The notes beneath the pieces were generated by a model. That model was given only the letters and a program-made list of their open reading frames with translations. It searched no databases and was not told the DNA's origin. Source: a virus. Taken from it: 38,808 bases of DNA. The DNA is taken from positions 1-38,808 of IMG/VR virus record IMGVR_UViG_3300043639_000040. One strand, written 5' to 3'. The position numbers and the translations under genes are program-made. How positions within the stretch are numbered: the first letter of the stretch is position 1; every line of letters starts with the position of its first letter. Positions 3,862 through 37,438 of this stretch are shown here, in pieces.

Positions 3862-3890
3862 TTGACACGTTCGGCCGCTCGGTTTAATAT
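3862..3890 (+). promoter_or_regulatory. Near-consensus promoter for immA-int
   Basis: TTGACA (3862-3867), exactly 17 bp, then TAATAT (3885-3890): close to sigma-70 consensus. It lies just after the stop of the secreted protein and just before the protease gene, with initiation expected near 3897. Confidence 0.75.
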
Positions 3891-3933
3891 TCAACTATGC
3901 ACTTTGTTTCACAGATGGCACAAAACACTAATC

Positions 3934-4404
3934 ATGCATTTACTCTTTACATCACTGAAACGCGTCTTTCCCTACCTCAACTCTCAGCCGTACACTTTTG
4001 ACGATGTTGAACGAATAGCTAAACGCGAACGCATAAAACTTACGGTCTGTGACTACAATCCGGATATACTTGGCTACTTTTGCACTCGGAAAACTCCACA
4101 GAGAACTAAGAAATTCATCGTCATAAATTCCCGACTGGATATCATCGGCCGGACGTTCATCGGTTTACACGAACTTGCTCATTATTTTCTTCACGCACCG
4201 ACATCGCCAAAACAATGGTTCTACTGTCGCCGGATTGCGGAGCTTACCCGATCCAAGCATGACTGCGAAGCGGACGCCTTTGCTCTTATCGCCATGCTGC
4301 CGCTCTGGATGATAGTCGAATTGAATGGCAGTCAGGACCTTCACCCGGCTTTAGCCGATTTGTGTATTCGTCGTAAGAAGCTTTGGGAAAAACACCGAAT
4401 ATAG
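3934..4404 (+). CDS. ImmA/IrrE-type metalloprotease (156 aa)
   Basis: It carries the zinc-protease motif H79-E80-L-A-H83 in GLHELAHYFLH and a downstream acidic site in CEADAFALIAMLP (E112), the arrangement of the ImmA/IrrE (M78) family. The usual upstream helix pattern is present (DDVERIAKRERIKLTVCDYN). In known systems such proteases cleave a CI-like repressor after DNA damage, and the repressor here lacks its own protease domain, so the pairing fits. An in-frame TTG at 3862 lies on the -35 box of the promoter, so ATG 3934 is preferred. No helix-turn-helix is fused to it. Confidence 0.8.
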   Translation: MHLLFTSLKRVFPYLNSQPYTFDDVERIAKRERIKLTVCDYNPDILGYFCTRKTPQRTKKFIVINSRLDIIGRTFIGLHELAHYFLHAPTSPKQWFYCRRIAELTRSKHDCEADAFALIAMLPLWMIVELNGSQDLHPALADLCIRRKKLWEKHRI

Positions 4405-4416
4405 GACACATCTGAC

Positions 4417-4455
4417 CTATATAGCACATGTGCTATATAGCGTATCTGCTATATA
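4417..4455. promoter_or_regulatory. 24-bp perfect palindrome plus extra half-site at integrase start
   Basis: Bases 4417-4440 are a perfect palindrome with arms CTATATAGCACA and TGTGCTATATAG. A third copy of the half-site, TGCTATATA (4447-4455), runs into the integrase start codon. Protein binding here would block integrase translation initiation or transcription, so it may be an autoregulatory or integrase-binding site. Confidence 0.7.
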
Positions 4456-5594
4456 TGGCAGTCAAAAAGTATTTTGTGAATGGGCCCAAAGACGGCTATC
4501 AGTACGATCGCAAAGAGAATAAGTACTTTTCCTGGGGTTACGATATCTGGATATCAGGTGAACGGATCAGAGAACGCGGATTGCCTACTCGTCAAGCAGC
4601 TGCGGCTGCGATCACACAGCTAAAGCAAAATGCCCGTAACGAACGTTTAGGAATCGTAAGCCCGAAAGACCCGCCGATGCTCATAGAACTATTTCAGCAG
4701 AAGTTAAATGCCATGCCAGTCGGTCCTGAGCGGTCCCGGGCAAAGCGGGTGATGAGCAAATTTCTGGAACCGCTGCCCAATGGTATCAAAGTTACAGAGC
4801 TACGAGCCGTCCATATTCAGGATTACGTTCACGGCCGTGCCGCCGCCGGCGTATCTGCGTCCACCATCCGGCGGGAACTCGTGCCGGTAGTTGCCGCTCT
4901 GAATGCTGCAGGAACATTCTATGAGGCATTGGAATCCTACCGGCCGCCAAAGATCACACGGCCTAAGATCTCAAAAACCCGCAAATCAAAAGTGATCACT
5001 CCGGGCGAACTGGCTGCCATATTAAAATGGCTATTCGATCCTAAAAACGATAAAGGCCGCGGCTTATGTCGACGCGCCGGATTATTCCTACAGTTATGCC
5101 TTTTGACGGCATCGCGGCCTGGTGAAATCGCTCATTTGAAAAAGTCTGACGTCGACCTGAATTCAATGATGCTAAGGATAGAGGGAACCAAGACCCGTTT
5201 TGAGAGTGTCGCCGGGCTCCGGCATTTGAATATCTCACCTGCTATGGAAAAGATCTTGCTCGAGAGAATGGAATTAAGTAACAGTGAATATTTATTTACC
5301 CGGGCCGGAAAGGTGACTGGCAAGATGTACGATGCTTTAAAGGCAGCCTGCGAAGCCAACGGCTATGCTTATGGTAAAAACGAGCCGCATGGGATCACGT
5401 TTAGCAGATCCAGGCATACAGGAATCACCAACATGCTTCGTAGTGGGGTAGATATCCAAACCGTGGGAACGATCGTCGGACATTCGAATTCTACGATGAC
5501 CCTGCACTACGCCCACGGTGATCCTGAAGCTATAAAAAAAGCGATATTTGAGCTAAATAAGCTGTTTAAAGTGCGTGATCTCTTTGATGTTTAG
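4455..5594 (+). CDS. int: Tyrosine-family phage integrase (379 aa)
   Basis: A site-specific recombinase that would integrate and excise the phage. The N-terminal arm-binding-like region includes WGYDIWISGERIRERGLPTR, followed by a SAM-like core-binding domain (about 70-170) and the catalytic domain. Catalytic residues visible: R221 in TASRPGEIAHL, R330 in SRSRHTG, H353 in GHSNSTMT, and the nucleophile Y362 in LHYAHGD. The His normally three residues before the second Arg appears to be Ser327, an oddity also seen in some active relatives. An ATG at 4428 reads through palindromic DNA; ATG 4455 (MAVKKYFVNG) is preferred. The gene is convergent with the lysis genes. Confidence 0.9.
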   Translation: MAVKKYFVNGPKDGYQYDRKENKYFSWGYDIWISGERIRERGLPTRQAAAAAITQLKQNARNERLGIVSPKDPPMLIELFQQKLNAMPVGPERSRAKRVMSKFLEPLPNGIKVTELRAVHIQDYVHGRAAAGVSASTIRRELVPVVAALNAAGTFYEALESYRPPKITRPKISKTRKSKVITPGELAAILKWLFDPKNDKGRGLCRRAGLFLQLCLLTASRPGEIAHLKKSDVDLNSMMLRIEGTKTRFESVAGLRHLNISPAMEKILLERMELSNSEYLFTRAGKVTGKMYDALKAACEANGYAYGKNEPHGITFSRSRHTGITNMLRSGVDIQTVGTIVGHSNSTMTLHYAHGDPEAIKKAIFELNKLFKVRDLFDV

Positions 5595-6770: not shown

Positions 6771-7184
6771 TTATAGACTACCGACATACGCACCGGCCGC
6801 GAATATCAGTATCTTTTCAACCTTTTCAAAAAACTGTCTCAATGCACTCTTACTCGGGTGCACCTGTTTTCGTAAGAAAGTATTATCTGCCATCAGGTCC
6901 GCGATCATTTGGTCTTTGATAGCTAAAGCGGCCACTCTCAGATCGTCCAGGGCCTTACGTGCTGCGATCTCGTTGTCTTTAGCACCAATAACCGCTATAG
7001 CCTTTTCGTAGGCATCGAGGGCTTTATCCAGCCGCTGTTGGCAAACATCAATGCTGACAGGTAGAGTCGTCGGGGAAGTCCCGGCAGAAGCGGTCGCCTG
7101 AGCTGTTGCCGTTGAATGTAGAGCTATCCCGATCAACAGACCTATTGAGAGCATTACCAGCCTGATTACTTTGATTCGCTGCAT
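6771..7184 (-). CDS. Exported/membrane protein nested with Rz-like gene (137 aa)
   Basis: The N-terminus (MQRIKVIRLVMLSIGLLIGI...) is a signal peptide or membrane anchor with a possible cleavage site near ATAQA. The centre is helical and charged (DVCQQRLDKALDAYEKAIAV), and the C-terminus is hydrophobic (ILIFAAGAYVGSL), which may be a second membrane segment. The first 46 codons overlap the end of the upstream gene in another frame. This nested geometry is that of spanin gene pairs, but no lipobox Cys is present, so it is not a classical Rz1 lipoprotein. It may be an outer-membrane partner of another type or a holin-class protein. Confidence 0.6.
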   Translation of the reverse strand: MQRIKVIRLVMLSIGLLIGIALHSTATAQATASAGTSPTTLPVSIDVCQQRLDKALDAYEKAIAVIGAKDNEIAARKALDDLRVAALAIKDQMIADLMADNTFLRKQVHPSKSALRQFFEKVEKILIFAAGAYVGSL

Positions 7185-7392
7185 TATTTACCTCTTTCTC
7201 CTGATTCACCATTAAATTGGCCTGTACCGCGTTCTTGCCTATGTCGATACCAATGTTTACCGCATCTTTTCGCTCATGTTCGCTTACACCATCCCCTGAA
7301 TAAGCCCACCATAGAAGCCCGATGGTGATCAGTGCGGCGATAAGTCCGCCGATAATGAGCCACTTCCACTGTTTTTCCGATAAAGCGATCAT
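7048..7392 (-). CDS. Rz-like i-spanin candidate (114 aa)
   Basis: One N-terminal span (WLIIGGLIAALITIGLLWWA, about residues 11-30) is followed by a periplasmic Asn/Gln-rich stretch and the ending RFCRDFPDDSTCQH. The F-C-x-x-F-P-x-D-S-x-C ending is, from memory, typical of Rz-like proteins encoded next to phage endolysins. The gene starts two bases after the endolysin stop and its 3' end contains the start of the next gene in another frame, the layout of Rz/Rz1 pairs. It would connect inner to outer membrane during lysis if the host is Gram-negative. Confidence 0.65.
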   Translation of the reverse strand: MIALSEKQWKWLIIGGLIAALITIGLLWWAYSGDGVSEHERKDAVNIGIDIGKNAVQANLMVNQEKEVNNAANQSNQAGNALNRSVDRDSSTFNGNSSGDRFCRDFPDDSTCQH

Positions 7393-7394
7393 AG

Positions 7395-8606
7395 CTATGC
7401 TGTCGCCGTCGTCGCCGGCACATCGCCCGTTCCGCGTCTAATAACCACCCACCCGGCCTTGGCATACTTATCGAGCTCGCTTTCAGGCACGATAGTCACA
7501 GTATTGGTCGGGGTTGAATTGACCTGAGCCAAGACGTCCGTTCGCTTACGCTGGCCCCACCATTCGAGCAAATGGGCGGCAGCTTCGTACAACAGCCACA
7601 GGACAAACGCCACCACGCTTCCGAGGATGACGTATATAATTATCCACCCTGGCAATCCAAGATCGTCCAGTTGGTGCTTATATTCGTTAATGCCCGCTAG
7701 TCCACCGGCATACGCAAACCATCCGGCAAGTTTGAGCTTGATCTTCGTAAGAAAACCAACCTGTACTTCTTTTCCAATGGCGACGTTCGTGCTTTGCGTA
7801 ATCGTCTGCGATGCCCCGCTCTCGCCCTCATCCGTTTGGAATGTGGTCTGCTGTACCGTTCCTTGAGACATCGGCGGCTGACTGTTCCCAGCAGGATCGT
7901 CCCCACCAACTGGAGGGGCCGGAGTGTCAGCGGAGACGGACCCGGTTCCGGCAGTGTCCGAATCCTGGCTGGTTGCAGCCGCCGAGATTTGTGAAACTAT
8001 AAGAATGTGTTCAAATTTCATCGCATAACCGGCAATAAGCAGGCCGTTCTTACCTTTATCGCCGTTGATGATCTCTCGAGCTTCTTCATATTGGTGAACC
8101 GTTGCCGAATCGCCATGCAGCATTCGATCGAGCGTGAATTGGCCGCGGCCATCCTTTCGATAGATACCGTGTGACATGCCGGCAACCATCGCCTCGTATG
8201 CCCATTCATTTTCAAGCAGCAGATCGGGATTCTTGACGAACATATCCCCGACGCCAAGCAGCTTGCCAATAGCCCGGTACTTATCTTCCCAAGTCGTTTG
8301 AACTTTGCCTCTACCGTAAAACCCGGATAGCCAGTAGCGGTCCTGATTTGCACGGCCCTTCGATCCCGCACGATTACGGCCTTCTTTGACCGGAACAAAG
8401 TGGTTGCCGTTAATACCGGTCTCGTGGTACTCGGTGGCAAGAACGTAAGAATACTGAGCAATACCGTGAATACGGGTCTCGGTCTCAAATTTGTTGAGAT
8501 CTGCATTTAAGGCGTCGACGGTTGCTTGAGTGGTTGGGCCATACACATCAAAAGCTTTGTGGTAAAGCTGCCAAAAACGTTTACGGTCAAGTTTTAACGG
8601 ACTCAT
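7395..8606 (-). CDS. GH19-like endolysin with C-terminal membrane anchor (403 aa)
   Basis: Residues 1-200 resemble glycoside hydrolase 19-type (chitinase/lysozyme-fold) endolysins: YVLATEYHETG with Glu59 and Glu62 as candidate catalytic acids, FYGRGKVQTTWEDKY (96-110, compare the GRG-xQ-TW motif of the family), and LLLENEWAYEAMVAG. Residues 205-285 are a Ser/Thr/Pro/Gly-rich linker. A strong hydrophobic helix follows at 311-330 (WIIIYVILGSVVAFVLWLLY), then a basic, soluble tail. A C-terminal anchor is unusual for an endolysin and would hold the enzyme at the membrane. It heads the lysis cluster. ATG 8606 has no clear ribosome binding site. Confidence 0.75.
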   Translation of the reverse strand: MSPLKLDRKRFWQLYHKAFDVYGPTTQATVDALNADLNKFETETRIHGIAQYSYVLATEYHETGINGNHFVPVKEGRNRAGSKGRANQDRYWLSGFYGRGKVQTTWEDKYRAIGKLLGVGDMFVKNPDLLLENEWAYEAMVAGMSHGIYRKDGRGQFTLDRMLHGDSATVHQYEEAREIINGDKGKNGLLIAGYAMKFEHILIVSQISAAATSQDSDTAGTGSVSADTPAPPVGGDDPAGNSQPPMSQGTVQQTTFQTDEGESGASQTITQSTNVAIGKEVQVGFLTKIKLKLAGWFAYAGGLAGINEYKHQLDDLGLPGWIIIYVILGSVVAFVLWLLYEAAAHLLEWWGQRKRTDVLAQVNSTPTNTVTIVPESELDKYAKAGWVVIRRGTGDVPATTATA

Positions 8607-32318: not shown

Positions 32319-32768
32319 TTAATCAGCCTCGGGTAACTTAGCCCGGTTCGATTTAATAGCGAACTGTGGCCGGTCTGAGCCAATAACAGTACGCGATACG
32401 CGATACAGCATGCCGCGCATGATCAAAGCGGCCACGATCTCATTGACCACACATCTATGCAGCCGGGTATCTTCAGCGATCTCAGTTTCAGTTGTGGCCC
32501 CGGACCGCTCGATCGCATACAGCACCATTTCTTCGCGTTGAGAGGGTGTGGCCCGGATCATGGACCTAAGCTCTTCGATAAGCTGATTAACTTTGGGTAA
32601 TCCAAATATCTGCTCTTCAGGAGTAAAAGACCTACGAACCTTAAGAAGCTTATCGATAACGCTCTTTGCAACAGCAGCCTCATCAGAGACCGCCGCCGGA
32701 AGGATATCGGTATCGAATAATTTATGGTTGTCGGCCATTCTAAAGCTTACTGATGCTGAGCTGAGCAT
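32319..32768 (-). CDS. Winged-helix-like DNA-binding protein (149 aa)
   Basis: ATG 32768 has gggga 4 nt upstream and overlaps the previous gene by 29 nt; ATG 32738 (MADNHKL) is an alternative just after the previous stop. The N-terminal half is helical (EEQIFGLPKVNQLIEELRSM). The C-terminal half has a winged-helix pattern: TETEIAEDTRLHRCVVNEIV with AALIMRGMLYRVSR as the recognition helix and wing. It is the last gene before the packaging block, a common place for a late-gene regulator. Specific family not recognised. Confidence 0.55.
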   Translation of the reverse strand: MLSSASVSFRMADNHKLFDTDILPAAVSDEAAVAKSVIDKLLKVRRSFTPEEQIFGLPKVNQLIEELRSMIRATPSQREEMVLYAIERSGATTETEIAEDTRLHRCVVNEIVAALIMRGMLYRVSRTVIGSDRPQFAIKSNRAKLPEAD

Positions 32769-33264
32769 TATTCCCCGCTAATTTCTGAAACCCAAGAAAA
32801 AGTTTTAATTGTATCGAGTTAAATACCCCGCCAGGGTGCACATAAAACAAAGGCACTTCACGGCCGGTACGCCGGCTATAACCGGTTTTGAATTCCTGGG
32901 TCCAATTCCTCTTGATCTCTTTATAGACAAAAGTATGAGTATCTAAATATTTTTTTATATATACCTTTATATTTTCATCATCTATATTCCCCAGAGCGTG
33001 ACCGTGGATCGCATTTACAAGCTCGATCTCCGTGAGATACGCGGCTTCAGTCGGCATACCCAAGCAAAACTGTTCAGTGATGACGCCTGGCCGCCCTGTA
33101 CGCTCGTATGAGCCATCTGAGTGGCCAACGTGGACCTGATACAGATACGCGATAGCCCGGGAAACACTGGACCTATATTTCTCACTTTCAAATAACGCAT
33201 CAAGATCAACATATTCCGGCCAGCTTCGGGCAACATATTTCTTTTTCGGGATAAAGCTAGGCAC
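32740..33264 (-). CDS. Hypothetical early protein (174 aa)
   Basis: A GTG start at 33264 overlaps the previous gene by 8 nt. The product begins MPSFIPKKKYVARSWPEYVD, contains helices (SRAIAYLYQVHVGHSDGSYE, YLTEIELVNAIHGHALGN) and a basic central segment (YKEIKRNWTQEFKTGYSRRT). Part of its coding sequence is unusually AT-rich (about 32935-32990). No family recognised; a replication-initiator-like role is conceivable but not supported. Confidence 0.55.
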   Translation of the reverse strand: MPSFIPKKKYVARSWPEYVDLDALFESEKYRSSVSRAIAYLYQVHVGHSDGSYERTGRPGVITEQFCLGMPTEAAYLTEIELVNAIHGHALGNIDDENIKVYIKKYLDTHTFVYKEIKRNWTQEFKTGYSRRTGREVPLFYVHPGGVFNSIQLKLFLGFQKLAGNNAQLSISKL

Positions 33265-33691: not shown

Positions 33692-34264
33692 TTACGCCGT
33701 GATTAGCCGGGTGATGTTGTCTTTCAGATGCCCGAGCTCGCTGACTTTGTTTACAACGGCAATACCGCCGGTTGCGGCTGCCAGGTCTTTTAGAAACTGC
33801 CGCCCGGGCCCGGTCTCATTTCCGACAAAAATAGTGTCGATCTTGCTTTTGAACTTTGATGCGGCGGAAAGGGTCTCTTTATCGTTATCCGGTTCGCCGT
33901 CAGATATCAGCACAAGCCGGATATCGGTGTTATTAGCCATGAGCATCATTCGAAGAGCGGCAACCATATCGGTCATACCGCCCTGCATAATGGGAACACC
34001 TGACGGACAAAAATCGGCTCGATTAGAGAACGCTGCGACGGCAATTTCGCCCGGGTAAGCATTCTGCAACTGCTCAAGCTGCTCACAGGCGGCATCATAT
34101 CGGGACCGGCCGCTGCCAGCATCACCCTGCGTCATTGACCCCGACACGTCGACCATGACGAACGCTTTAACGTTCATAAACCCCATCGCGATCGTGGTGT
34201 CATTTTTACGAGCGACGGCCCCAAGCGATCCCGCTACTATTTGTTGATTTGCATTTTCTCTCAT
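33692..34264 (-). CDS. VWA-domain protein (190 aa)
   Basis: A compact von Willebrand factor A domain with a complete metal-ion-dependent adhesion site: D39-V-S-G-S-M (DVSGSM), T98 in GGMTD, and D122/D126 in SDGEPD. The Rossmann-like strands are visible (VKAFVMVDVSGSM, IAVAAFS, IRLVLISDGEPD, KIDTIFVG, GIAVVNKVSEL). Its start overlaps the small Cys-rich gene (ATGA) and the ACTTGGAGA leader lies 9 nt upstream. VWA proteins usually act with a partner ATPase or bind protein ligands; none is encoded nearby except the J-domain protein. Unusual in a phage early region. Confidence 0.82.
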   Translation of the reverse strand: MRENANQQIVAGSLGAVARKNDTTIAMGFMNVKAFVMVDVSGSMTQGDAGSGRSRYDAACEQLEQLQNAYPGEIAVAAFSNRADFCPSGVPIMQGGMTDMVAALRMMLMANNTDIRLVLISDGEPDNDKETLSAASKFKSKIDTIFVGNETGPGRQFLKDLAAATGGIAVVNKVSELGHLKDNITRLITA

Positions 34265-34461
34265 CTCGAATTCTCCAAGTTTTTGTTTAGTCTCACCTCA
34301 ACCCGTTTAGCGATTTTTGCCATTGCCGTTCGGGTTGCACCGCGATATGGGCCACGCCGGTCGCGTGGCTTTTTCATTACATATGCTCGAGTTTTCTTAA
34401 CCTCATATTTACAACCGGCCGCGAAACCGCAGTTGCAGTTAAGGCACTCGTCATATTTCAT
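34261..34461 (-). CDS. Small Cys-rich basic protein (66 aa)
   Basis: ATG 34461 overlaps the stop of the J-domain gene (ATGA), and its own stop overlaps the VWA gene start (ATGA). The sequence MKYDECLNCNCGFAAGCKYE has four Cys (C-x2-C-x-C-x5-C), then a Lys/Arg-rich tail (TRTAMAKIAKRVEVRLNKN). It links the HARP/J-domain and VWA genes in one translationally coupled unit. Possibly a zinc-binding nucleic-acid or adaptor protein. Confidence 0.6.
   Translation of the reverse strand: MKYDECLNCNCGFAAGCKYEVKKTRAYVMKKPRDRRGPYRGATRTAMAKIAKRVEVRLNKNLENSR
34273..34280 (-). promoter_or_regulatory. ACTTGGAG leader motif before VWA gene
   Basis: ACTTGGAG on the minus strand just upstream of ATG 34264 (GGAG, 9 nt away). 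It lies inside the coding end of the previous gene. Same word as at 701-710, 2418-2425 and 35372-35379. Confidence 0.45.
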
Positions 34462-35348
34462 ACCCACGCCATTCCCCATGTGTCATCGGCCCAGAAACTG
34501 ACCATTATCTGACCGATCTCGTTGGTGATGTCTTCCCAGGCGAGAATTTCTTCAACGACAAGAACCCCAAGCTCGCGTTTTGCCCGGACGGTAAGCATTC
34601 CGCAGCGGAGCATCGGCGTGAAGGATGAGTATTTGGAACGATGGTGATAGCCGCCACGGGCAGTTTTAGCCATCTGCTCAAAAGCGAGACCGGCGTTGTA
34701 TTTAGCCCGGCCCAACTGAGAACTGAGAATGTTGTAGGCGTTTTTGATCGTCTCGAACATTTCCCGAGCGTTCTCTTCACGGCAGATATCCGGATGCCAT
34801 TGCCGGGCGGCCCGCTTATAGGCTTTCTTTATTTCGATGTCGCTTGCCGCCTTATCGACACCCAGAACGCCGTACAGCGTTGCCGGTGAGCTTTGGTCAG
34901 CCTGTTTGAACCATGCCCGTAACACTTTCTCCGGGATCTTGGCGTTCCAGCCGCCGTTAGAATGGACCGACGCAGCTTCATTTTTGCAGTTAGCGACGTA
35001 ATCAGCCTGGAAAGTTATCTTGAACGGTTTAGCATCTTCAGCGATCACCGTGGGCATGGCGACGTCACACGAGTAGCAGCGATCGATGATCTGCTTGAGA
35101 ACGTCGGCATAATCTTTTGAGACCAGCCACGCTTTAGCCGGTCCATCCCATTTTCGAGATGTGGCAGGAACTTCCAATTTAAGCTCCGCGACGAACTGCG
35201 AATTGTACGGCGCGTTGACCTTTAGAGAGCCATTTTCGGCAGTGACGGAAACGCCTTGATTTCGCCATGATGAGCTCTGAGAATTTGCCCTCGAGCAGTT
35301 GAATAATGCCCCTTGAGAACCGGGCGGATATTGTGCAAAAATTGCCAT
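34458..35348 (-). CDS. HARP-like plus J-domain protein (296 aa)
   Basis: The chosen start is ATG 35348 (MAIFAQYPPGSQGA) with gagg 8 nt upstream. Residues 43-90 (VNAPYNSQFVAELKLEVPA with KWDGPAKAWLVSKDY) match the HARP-like pattern: yn-x2-ev-x2-LK and (R)KWDgk-x-aW. HARP domains bind forked or single-stranded DNA. Residues 158-212 are a clear DnaJ domain: TLYGVLGVDKAASDIEIKKA, AYKRAARQWHPDICREENAR with the HPD tripeptide at 175-177, then REMFETIKNAYNILSS. The rest is hydrophilic (EEILAWEDITNEIGQIM). It lies next to the primase-polymerase and is coupled to the small Cys-rich and VWA genes. It may recruit host Hsp70 to replication forks; inference. Confidence 0.75.
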   Translation of the reverse strand: MAIFAQYPPGSQGALFNCSRANSQSSSWRNQGVSVTAENGSLKVNAPYNSQFVAELKLEVPATSRKWDGPAKAWLVSKDYADVLKQIIDRCYSCDVAMPTVIAEDAKPFKITFQADYVANCKNEAASVHSNGGWNAKIPEKVLRAWFKQADQSSPATLYGVLGVDKAASDIEIKKAYKRAARQWHPDICREENAREMFETIKNAYNILSSQLGRAKYNAGLAFEQMAKTARGGYHHRSKYSSFTPMLRCGMLTVRAKRELGVLVVEEILAWEDITNEIGQIMVSFWADDTWGMAWV

Positions 35349-35482: not shown

Positions 35483-37438
35483 TCAGTCATCATCTTTCTC
35501 ATAAAAATTCTTCACCGGCGGAGCATCAGTAGCTTTATTTTTGGGATTCGGTTTACTGCAATAAACCCCATGCCCGGGCCGGTCTAAAAAGCCGTCTTTA
35601 TAGAGTTCGCTTACGGCCTTTTTGATAGCGATCTCGCTGAACTGATCCTCGAAGTGCAAGATCAGTTCACCCATGGTTTTTGTGTCCGGGAACACAACGC
35701 TCTCCATGTACCGGCGAATCGTTTTATACGCCGTCATCTTCACCGGTGGGGCAACGATAGTCGTATGGTGAAACCACCGGTCCGCCTCGAGCCTAAATGT
35801 CTCAGAGTAATTCTGGCCGCCATCCGTCTTTCTTTTTGCACACTCGATATTTACTGGCTCGCCTTTTGAGACGTCGCCAAACATATTGATCACAGTCCGG
35901 GATAGCGACTGCAAAGCTGAAGCTCCGCGGCCTGCATGTACCCCGGCGTGTTCGATCTCATTTTTGGCTTTGCCGTAATGGTGAGCAAACAAAAAAGCAC
36001 AGTTGCCTTTGTAGGCCATTTTTAGAAGAGGCTTGATTATCTTCTTGGTTACTTCGGCATTGCTGTTCTCATCGTTTATGTCGTAGGCAGCAGATACGTT
36101 GTCGACAATGATAAATTCCACGCCATTTTGCAGAATTAGAGCATTAGCCCATGTTTCGTGCCGATTAAACTGAAAAAGTTCCCCATCCATAAGCCCTTTC
36201 GGAATAATGATCAGGTTGGTGTTTAGGGCCTTGGTTTCTGTATCTGTAAAAACCTCATCCATTAACCGGAGATCTCTTTGCACGTCCTGAGCGTCATTCT
36301 CGAAATCGAAGTAGGCTATCTTGATCGGTCTCTGCCCGTCATAAAACGGCATGAACGGACGACCGGCCGCCATACAAAGAGTGACGTTGCGCAATAAAGT
36401 AGTTTTGCCGGTATTGGTAGCCGCCTGGATGATCGCTATATCGCGTTTGCCGATGTGAAACGCTAAGATCTCTTTTGGTTCGAAATCGATCTTTCTAAAA
36501 TCGCCATATAAATGCGGTTCTAAGGTGTTCTCATAGTCAGGGTCAGGACTGTTCGGGTCCTTGTCACTTACTTGCCCCAATGCGTCCTGCGGCTTATAAC
36601 GGCCCACGCTGCGAGCGATGGTGTGAAGCTCTTTGTCGTCTACGGGCGGTTTGCAAATACGTTGATTTTCAACGGCAAGAGCGGCATAAATAGCTGCCTC
36701 GCTTAACCCCTTCGAACGCAAGGCCCCGGCAATTTTCGTTAGCTCAACATTTCTCTGGCCTTGATTTATCGAGTCCGGCAGGATCACGCCCGGAGCATTA
36801 GCCGGTACCACGAACGGCGATGAGCCATTACCGTTGCCATTTGTCGCCGGCAGCGGCATGACCAGCTTGTCTATCCACTGCTGAGGCAGATCGAGAATGA
36901 TATCGTTATCCGGATTTAAGAGCTCATAGTTTCGGCCGGAGACGTGCTTGCTTGGCGGAGCGATCACATAACCACCGTCGCCCCGTACATCGATAAATTT
37001 GCCAAGCCGAGACGCAGAGTTTTTTATAATCACACCCGCCGGCAGTTTGTAGTAGAAATGCAGCCCGGCCCCGGTTTTAACTTTTGGCGTGTTAAAAACC
37101 GTATGATCTAAACCGGATATAAGCAGGTCCTTAAGATCCGCACCTTTATCCGTATCGATATCGACCACGACCAATTGCGAGATCTGCCCGGTTGCGATGC
37201 CGATATTTGACGGTTCGGTCGCCGGATCGAACCACGCGGACACCAATCCCGCATCTACCGATGCGTCTAAAGACCCTTTTTGAGTTCGCGGGTGCTTGCC
37301 TTCGGATTTACAGTCAGGCTTACCGCACGTACAAAAACCGTCGGCAGCGATGGAATGGCACGGAAACACGGCCCAACCGAATTCGGTGGCGTAGTTCAGG
37401 GCGTAATCAAGAATTGAAGGGGCGGCAACGTCTTGCAT
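35483..37438 (-). CDS. Primase-polymerase / RepA-type helicase fusion (651 aa)
   Basis: N-terminal prim-pol (AEP) domain: FGWAVFPCHS, the Cys cluster CTCGKPDC, GKHPRTQKGSLDAS, IGIATGQISQLVVVDIDTD with catalytic D93 and D95, KTGAGLHFYY and VRGDGGYVIAPPS. A helicase-like ATPase domain follows: Walker A QAATNTGKTT (residues 338-347), IAYFDFENDAQDV, Walker B VEFIIVDNVSA, and AHHYGKAKNEIEH, as in RepA/DnaB-type AAA proteins. A winged-helix end (MGELILHFEDQFSEIAIKKA) may bind DNA. This is the central replication protein, next to the SSB gene. The leader to the SSB gene holds a strong hairpin. ATG 37438 lacks a clear ribosome binding site. Confidence 0.88.
   Translation of the reverse strand: MQDVAAPSILDYALNYATEFGWAVFPCHSIAADGFCTCGKPDCKSEGKHPRTQKGSLDASVDAGLVSAWFDPATEPSNIGIATGQISQLVVVDIDTDKGADLKDLLISGLDHTVFNTPKVKTGAGLHFYYKLPAGVIIKNSASRLGKFIDVRGDGGYVIAPPSKHVSGRNYELLNPDNDIILDLPQQWIDKLVMPLPATNGNGNGSSPFVVPANAPGVILPDSINQGQRNVELTKIAGALRSKGLSEAAIYAALAVENQRICKPPVDDKELHTIARSVGRYKPQDALGQVSDKDPNSPDPDYENTLEPHLYGDFRKIDFEPKEILAFHIGKRDIAIIQAATNTGKTTLLRNVTLCMAAGRPFMPFYDGQRPIKIAYFDFENDAQDVQRDLRLMDEVFTDTETKALNTNLIIIPKGLMDGELFQFNRHETWANALILQNGVEFIIVDNVSAAYDINDENSNAEVTKKIIKPLLKMAYKGNCAFLFAHHYGKAKNEIEHAGVHAGRGASALQSLSRTVINMFGDVSKGEPVNIECAKRKTDGGQNYSETFRLEADRWFHHTTIVAPPVKMTAYKTIRRYMESVVFPDTKTMGELILHFEDQFSEIAIKKAVSELYKDGFLDRPGHGVYCSKPNPKNKATDAPPVKNFYEKDDD

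Follow-up and report, generated by a model that had tools for sequence, protein, structure and literature searches.

What are the closest described systems?

The role of the J-domain proteins that phages encode has been called not well understood (PMC12619734), and the first of them found to be functional is Rki (gp057w) of phage RB43 (PMC3486835). Rki is a natural comparison for the protein discussed here, since in both cases a phage J-domain with an intact HPD motif occurs without a phage Hsp70, so that host DnaK is the likely partner. However, Rki has been presented as an ORFan, one that hinders DnaK and stabilises sigma32, whereas the present J-domain sits in a larger architecture of HARP-like, middle and C-terminal domains, is paired with a VWA protein and lies among replication genes. 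A second comparison is with the MoxR AAA+/VWA pairs, such as RavA-ViaA and those of Acidianus two-tailed virus (ATV) and the group 2.2 jumbo phages (PMC7824862, PMC7159879), in which a VWA protein with a MIDAS is likewise encoded with a chaperone component. The difference is that the 20 phage records scanned here have no MoxR, and the constant partner is instead a J-domain protein, in other words an Hsp70 co-chaperone.

The DnaK system also acts on phage and plasmid replication complexes, and those of P1 RepA are remodelled by host DnaJ and DnaK. In lambda, the release of DnaB from P is the work of host chaperones (PMC5395669), and mutations in GrpE-DnaK-DnaJ reduce lambda Red recombination (PMC3686724). 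In the lambda P-DnaB and P1 RepA cases it is the host's DnaJ that serves, whereas the phages discussed here would supply a DNA-targeted J-protein themselves, together with a VWA partner. For the DNA-targeting part, the relevant relative is SMARCAL1, which binds forks, single-strand/double-strand junctions and Holliday junctions and whose HARP domain (PDB 4o66; PMC4035279) matches the phage domain by profile over about 50 residues; unlike SMARCAL1, the phage protein has no SNF2 ATPase, so that it would need a motor from another source, probably DnaK, and the family's matches to HARP lie below the Pfam cut-off. A phage precedent of sorts is the 'HepA-related protein' of Bacillus phage vB_BsuS_PJN02 (UNH58515.1), which matches the HARP profile (E 1.4e-8, search space 1000) and is encoded free-standing at L132:4707-5213, near a primase subunit and SSB. 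It differs in being a 168 aa protein without a J-domain, with no VWA annotated nearby and no VWA-family match in the record. In the open-access literature we found no paper that pairs HARP with DnaJ in bacteria or names a J-VWA pair, an absence that is no proof of novelty.

How is the locus arranged?

The window, by which we mean the whole 38,808-nucleotide stretch of viral DNA analysed (IMG/VR record IMGVR_UViG_3300043639_000040), carries three ORFs on its minus strand just where the first-pass annotation had put them, with 33692-35348 running from the stop of the VWA gene to the start of the J-protein gene. The HARP-J gene (34458..35348, ATG at 35348, stop included) encodes 296 aa and was delimited from Pfam, its homologues and A3, our alignment of 29 J-family members; L002 has a full-length homologue at 71%. 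It is followed by a small Cys-rich ORF (34261..34461), an accessory gene of 66 aa if started at 34461 or 72 aa from 34479, and then by the VWA gene (33692..34264; 190 aa). The idea that ATGA overlaps join all three genes holds for the Cys-rich and VWA genes (34261-34264), and for the J and Cys-rich genes only if the latter starts at its second ATG (34461); a start at the first ATG (34479) makes them overlap by 22 bp.

The pair comes directly after a primase-helicase gene (35483..37438, minus strand; Prim-Pol, PriCT_1 and AAA_25 by Pfam, at 1.2e-34, 1.3e-13 and 5.7e-23), and stands a few genes before the terminase on the same strand. Downstream of the VWA gene are two further minus-strand ORFs common only to close relatives such as L002, one for an unknown protein (32740-33264) and one for a winged-helix-like protein with a weak MarR match (32319-32768). 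Far away on the plus strand, an IrrE-like (Peptidase_M78) gene and a tyrosine integrase gene stand side by side (3862-4404 and 4428-5594), and from these the phage looks temperate.

Is this a working J-domain?

The J-domain (34662..34883, minus strand; residues 156-229 from Pfam DnaJ and VIA alignment) had been read as intact, and so it is: the window protein matches Pfam DnaJ at E 6.5e-19 over residues 158-218 and contains the HPD, albeit at residues 185-187 (34788-34796), ten later than the 175-177 at which it had been miscounted. All 29 aligned J-family members match DnaJ, and only one of 75 distinct J proteins lacks the HPD, having HSD in its place (L070:7518-8348); its VWA partner is still present. 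The surface that would face DnaK is retained in the sequence across A3, with K174, Y177, K178 and R179 in helix II followed by the HPD, and the AF2 model of the domain superposes on the DnaK-bound J-domain of DnaJ (5nro_B; VIA Z 9.6, rmsd 1.4 over 62 residues). With HPD and helix II intact, HARP-J may be expected to stimulate an Hsp70 ATPase. Pfam finds neither DnaJ_C nor Zn-finger families in the window protein or the 29 members, the AF2 model showing different domains in their stead, and by this domain content HARP-J is to be classed as a class-C-type J protein and not a class A or B DnaJ, which would have a G/F-rich linker and client-binding C-terminal domains.

The AF2 model of the whole protein (mean pLDDT 79) has four parts, which in the model span residues 34-92, 109-147, about 156-229 and about 250-295. 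Besides the J-domain and the HARP-like segment (pLDDT about 88-96) there is a middle domain without a name (34905..35036, minus strand; residues 105-148), delimited from AF2 and A3 as four strands and a helix, with Y117, K122, W134, L143 and F147 conserved in A3 and a weak match to phrog_31194 (E 0.014). The C-terminal beta domain (34461..34616, minus strand; residues 245-296, likewise from AF2 and A3) carries an LRCG...W.D motif, and in A3 R248, G250, W271, D273, W286 and W295 are invariant; no Pfam family matched it. Structure searches with the model (Foldseek/VIA) listed only J-domains from the PDB, and in BFVD Foldseek reached a phage 'HepA-related protein' at rank 43 (E 6.4e-3).

Is the N-terminal domain a HARP relative?

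The answer depends on how one looks. The HARP-like domain (35073..35252, minus strand; residues 33-92, predicted E-E-H-E-E-H) was defined from Pfam, AF2 and a profile, A7, built on 24 homologous N-terminal segments. The first-pass annotation had recognised a HARP-like pattern here, at residues 43-90. The pattern is genuine; it is faint in the window protein taken by itself, Pfam giving no HARP match with the full protein and 13 bits against a 25-bit cut-off (E 0.076) with the excised segment, and it turns convincing at the level of the family. A search with a HARP profile had been proposed as the check, and whole-protein and contig scans with Pfam HARP proved too insensitive for it, a profile of excised segments being required. 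Run against 177,635 solved sequences, A7 has as its top match the SMARCAL1 HARP domain 4o66 (E 0.0014), with the second-best PDB match at only E 0.77. Pfam HARP (PF07443) is the commonest match of the 24 segments (11/24, best E 1.2e-4, all below the curated cut-off), and no member or record passes that cut-off in segments, whole proteins or contigs. K57, R65 and W74, aligned with the core of the SMARCAL1 HARP domain, vary little or not at all among the HARP-bearing members. Since SMARCAL1 HARP is the best match of A7, HARP the commonest Pfam match and the PJN02 protein a further match, we take the domain, on profile evidence, to be a divergent HARP relative. By analogy with what the SMARCAL1 literature describes, it would then bind forks or single-strand/double-strand junctions.

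Four distinct J members (L030, L032, L086/L087 and L090) lack the HARP segment and keep the VWA, which means that fork targeting is not obligatory. Their J genes (L030:5291-5908, L032:7902-8519, L086:3488-4102, L090:8018-8980) retain the middle, J and C-terminal domains. That such members hold on to the VWA suggests that it works with the J/C-terminal part of the protein rather than with HARP. They also lend something to a plainer explanation, in which the J protein keeps replication proteins soluble through DnaK, the HARP-like segment is a protein-protein module and the VWA a client-binding partner, with no DNA-targeted remodelling at all. The persistence of J-domain, C-terminal domain and VWA where HARP is gone, and the very high conservation of the J-domain, would suit such a folding helper well, but it gives no ready account of K57, R65 and W74, the HARP core positions kept so strictly wherever the segment occurs, and we regard it as improbable.

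What does the VWA protein contribute?

The VWA gene product had been credited with a full MIDAS, and this is confirmed: D39-x-S41-x-S43, T98 and D122 are all present (codons at 34136-34150, 33965-33973 and 33893-33904, minus strand), all five residues are invariant in 26 aligned homologues, and DxSxS occurs in 82 of the 82 VWA proteins that cover that region. The AF2 model (pLDDT 92, pTM 0.89) has a VWA fold, as structure comparison confirms with a best Z of 16.9; the best matches are generic and include TFIIH p44, Rpn10, BatB and VWA2, the archaeal ArnB paralogue. VWA proteins often work with a partner ATPase, and the expectation that one of MoxR type would be at hand was disappointed, as MoxR (AAA_3) was not found in 20 phage records, while a control host genome has two. 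Hsp70 was not found in the same 20 records either, and the Ornatilinea host genome encodes DnaK. With neither Hsp70 nor MoxR in those records, host DnaK is the likely motor, and the conservation of the HPD also points to the J protein acting on it.

How constant is the J-VWA pair?

J and VWA form a strongly conserved two-gene pair, and conservation of the neighbourhood, another check that had been put forward, comes out strongly for these two genes and leaves the Cys-rich gene out. A J-first scan of IMG/VR viruses gave 29 full-family contigs and two J-only outsiders; the VWA is on 27 of the 29 (26 in the surrounding stretch and one more in the full contig), and the two contigs without it are fragments of 10.7 and 14.6 kb. 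An independent VWA-first scan gave 80 contigs, 69 of them with J (66 in the surrounding stretch, three elsewhere on the contig), and of the 11 without J, 10 have the VWA less than 3 kb from a contig end; because many contigs are related or overlapping, none of these counts is a tally of independent events. L077 is the one true exception, with a VWA (L077:8050-8754) and no J. The site expected for J is taken up there by an HNH-type endonuclease-like ORF (6973-7518). Where both genes occur they share a strand in 101 of 103 loci, some of the records overlapping, and they are on opposite strands in L103 and L106.

Beyond the IMG/VR contigs, one GenBank phage, MW202444.1, is both the sole VWA-family match and the sole full-length J-family match among 50,697 GenBank phage records. 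Both genes are also in all four bacterial loci, including that of an isolate, Ornatilinea apprima (Chloroflexota, Anaerolineae), and in L122, L124 and L125 the pair adjoins terminase-type phage genes. Among 396 Anaerolineae genomes two have the VWA, each with a J-family gene adjacent. The phage-gene region of this isolate, L125 (NZ_LGCL01000045.1), and the viral contig L019 (IMGVR_UViG_3300005144_000002) share mostly about 93-98% protein identity across the replication module, a similarity that gives these phages a cultured host in Ornatilinea apprima.

Could two genes with unrelated jobs simply have travelled together by shared descent, in one early-gene cluster? Synteny is indeed common to related phages, and the mirror-tree correlation of J and VWA distances (rho 0.68, 70 pairs) shrinks to 0.15 when limited to a common set of 20 loci, so that it gives no independent sign of J-VWA contact. 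Yet the pair stays while other genes of the module change or vanish (in the window, L003, L006, L029 and L033), and it recurs in L042 and L131, both of them distant, so that hitchhiking of this kind strikes us as scarcely credible. In L042 an ORF with HARP and HPD, a small Zn-ribbon ORF and a VWA lie beside an FtsK-like ATPase.

What lies between the two genes?

The first-pass annotation had proposed a trio, and this is not borne out. A phmmer search with the Cys-rich protein found no homologue in any of the fetched loci, and in the closest phages the stretch from J to VWA is filled by different genes. We therefore rejected it as a third component, its gene being unconserved and its place variable. 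What separates J from VWA differs from phage to phage, as in a cargo slot, and its size goes from an overlap to about 5 kb, with a median near 330 bp. Double-CxxC ORFs occur in 12 of 43 such gaps against 2 and 4 in equal flanking stretches, and these are mostly unrelated proteins. Otherwise the contents are diverse: a methyltransferase-like gene and other ORFs in L002 (5454-7065), pentapeptide repeats and a Zn ribbon in MW202444.1, a Lar-like restriction-alleviation protein in L122 (9777-11421), HNH-like and Zn-ribbon ORFs in further gaps, and variable content again at L003:9879-10546.

Cargo of this kind makes one think of defence, and an anti-defence device had indeed been offered as an alternative at the outset. 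Here the J protein would capture host DnaK, or keep DnaK/DnaJ from chaperone-dependent immune sensors, with the VWA as co-factor or ligand-binding partner. Rki shows that a phage J-protein can bind DnaK, stabilise sigma32 and help growth (PMC3486835), an NLR-like defence protein is cited in PMC12619734 as needing DnaJ, and small Zn-ribbon genes, DNA methyltransferases or, in L122, a Lar-like gene are often what fills the slot. However, host takeover or counter-defence has no need of a HARP-like junction domain or of a constant placement among replication and recombination genes, and PADLOC gives no match for the J, Cys-rich or VWA protein, all of which leads us to consider it unlikely.

What company does the pair keep?

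The genes that turn up repeatedly beside the pair encode an ERCC4-type nuclease, an AAA_24 ATPase, a PD-(D/E)XK nuclease, a VapE-type helicase and a Prim-Pol primase. The AAA_24 protein we take to be Sak4-like. Among the J-centred loci, 15 extend 6.9 kb or more in either direction. The VWA is present in all 15 of them, the primase and ERCC4 in 12 each, AAA_24 and PDDEXK in 10 each and VapE in 9, which shows that the pair outlasts its neighbours; in the window itself, the ERCC4, AAA_24 and PDDEXK families are not clustered. In the complete genome of MW202444.1 the pair shares its direction of transcription with RepA and a Holliday-junction resolvase, and the capsid and tail genes run the other way. 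The earlier suggestion of a replication or remodelling complex is thus favoured by context, among replication and recombination genes, while its further step, that host Hsp70 is brought to forks, is an inference.

These orientations also bear on the possibility that the pair is a virion-assembly co-chaperone, the role proposed for the MoxR-VWA pairs of Acidianus two-tailed virus and the group 2.2 jumbo phages (PMC7824862). The window, where the terminase follows within a few genes on the same strand, would fit; but the 20 phage records have no MoxR, the pair in MW202444.1 runs against the virion genes in the company of RepA and resolvase, and a HARP-like domain is present, and so we think this very unlikely.

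How might the pair work?

When the lambda P-DnaB precedent and the effect of host chaperones on Red recombination are set beside the conserved features of the family (domain content, residues, pairing, context and the absence of phage Hsp70 and MoxR), the best-supported account in our opinion is a DNA-junction Hsp70 adaptor. We propose tentatively, giving it a little less than an even chance, that HARP-J and VWA are a two-protein phage Hsp70 adaptor for DNA replication or recombination. The HARP-like domain would place the protein on single-strand/double-strand DNA junctions, as homology to SMARCAL1 suggests, and the J-domain would recruit and activate host DnaK there. The VWA, presumably in physical contact with the J protein, would serve as an obligate adaptor whose Mg-dependent MIDAS site holds either a client or some acidic ligand. 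DnaK might then loosen or dismantle a nucleoprotein complex, most plausibly the phage primase-helicase or the annealing/recombination machinery. A bolder version, which we find rather doubtful, is that VWA and HARP-J turn host Hsp70 into a DNA-junction remodeller, with a fork domain driven by DnaK and not SNF2, and a VWA coupled to Hsp70 and not MoxR.

Why does it matter?

The J-VWA family is widespread in environmental bacterial viruses, and with its DNA-junction domain, its conserved partner and its place among replication genes it offers a candidate answer to the question of what phage J-proteins do. The module is small, amounting to two proteins plus DnaK, and the cultured bacterium Ornatilinea apprima carries it. 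If our account is true, Hsp70 remodelling would be tied directly to forks or recombination intermediates, and a VWA protein would be linked to Hsp70 rather than to MoxR.
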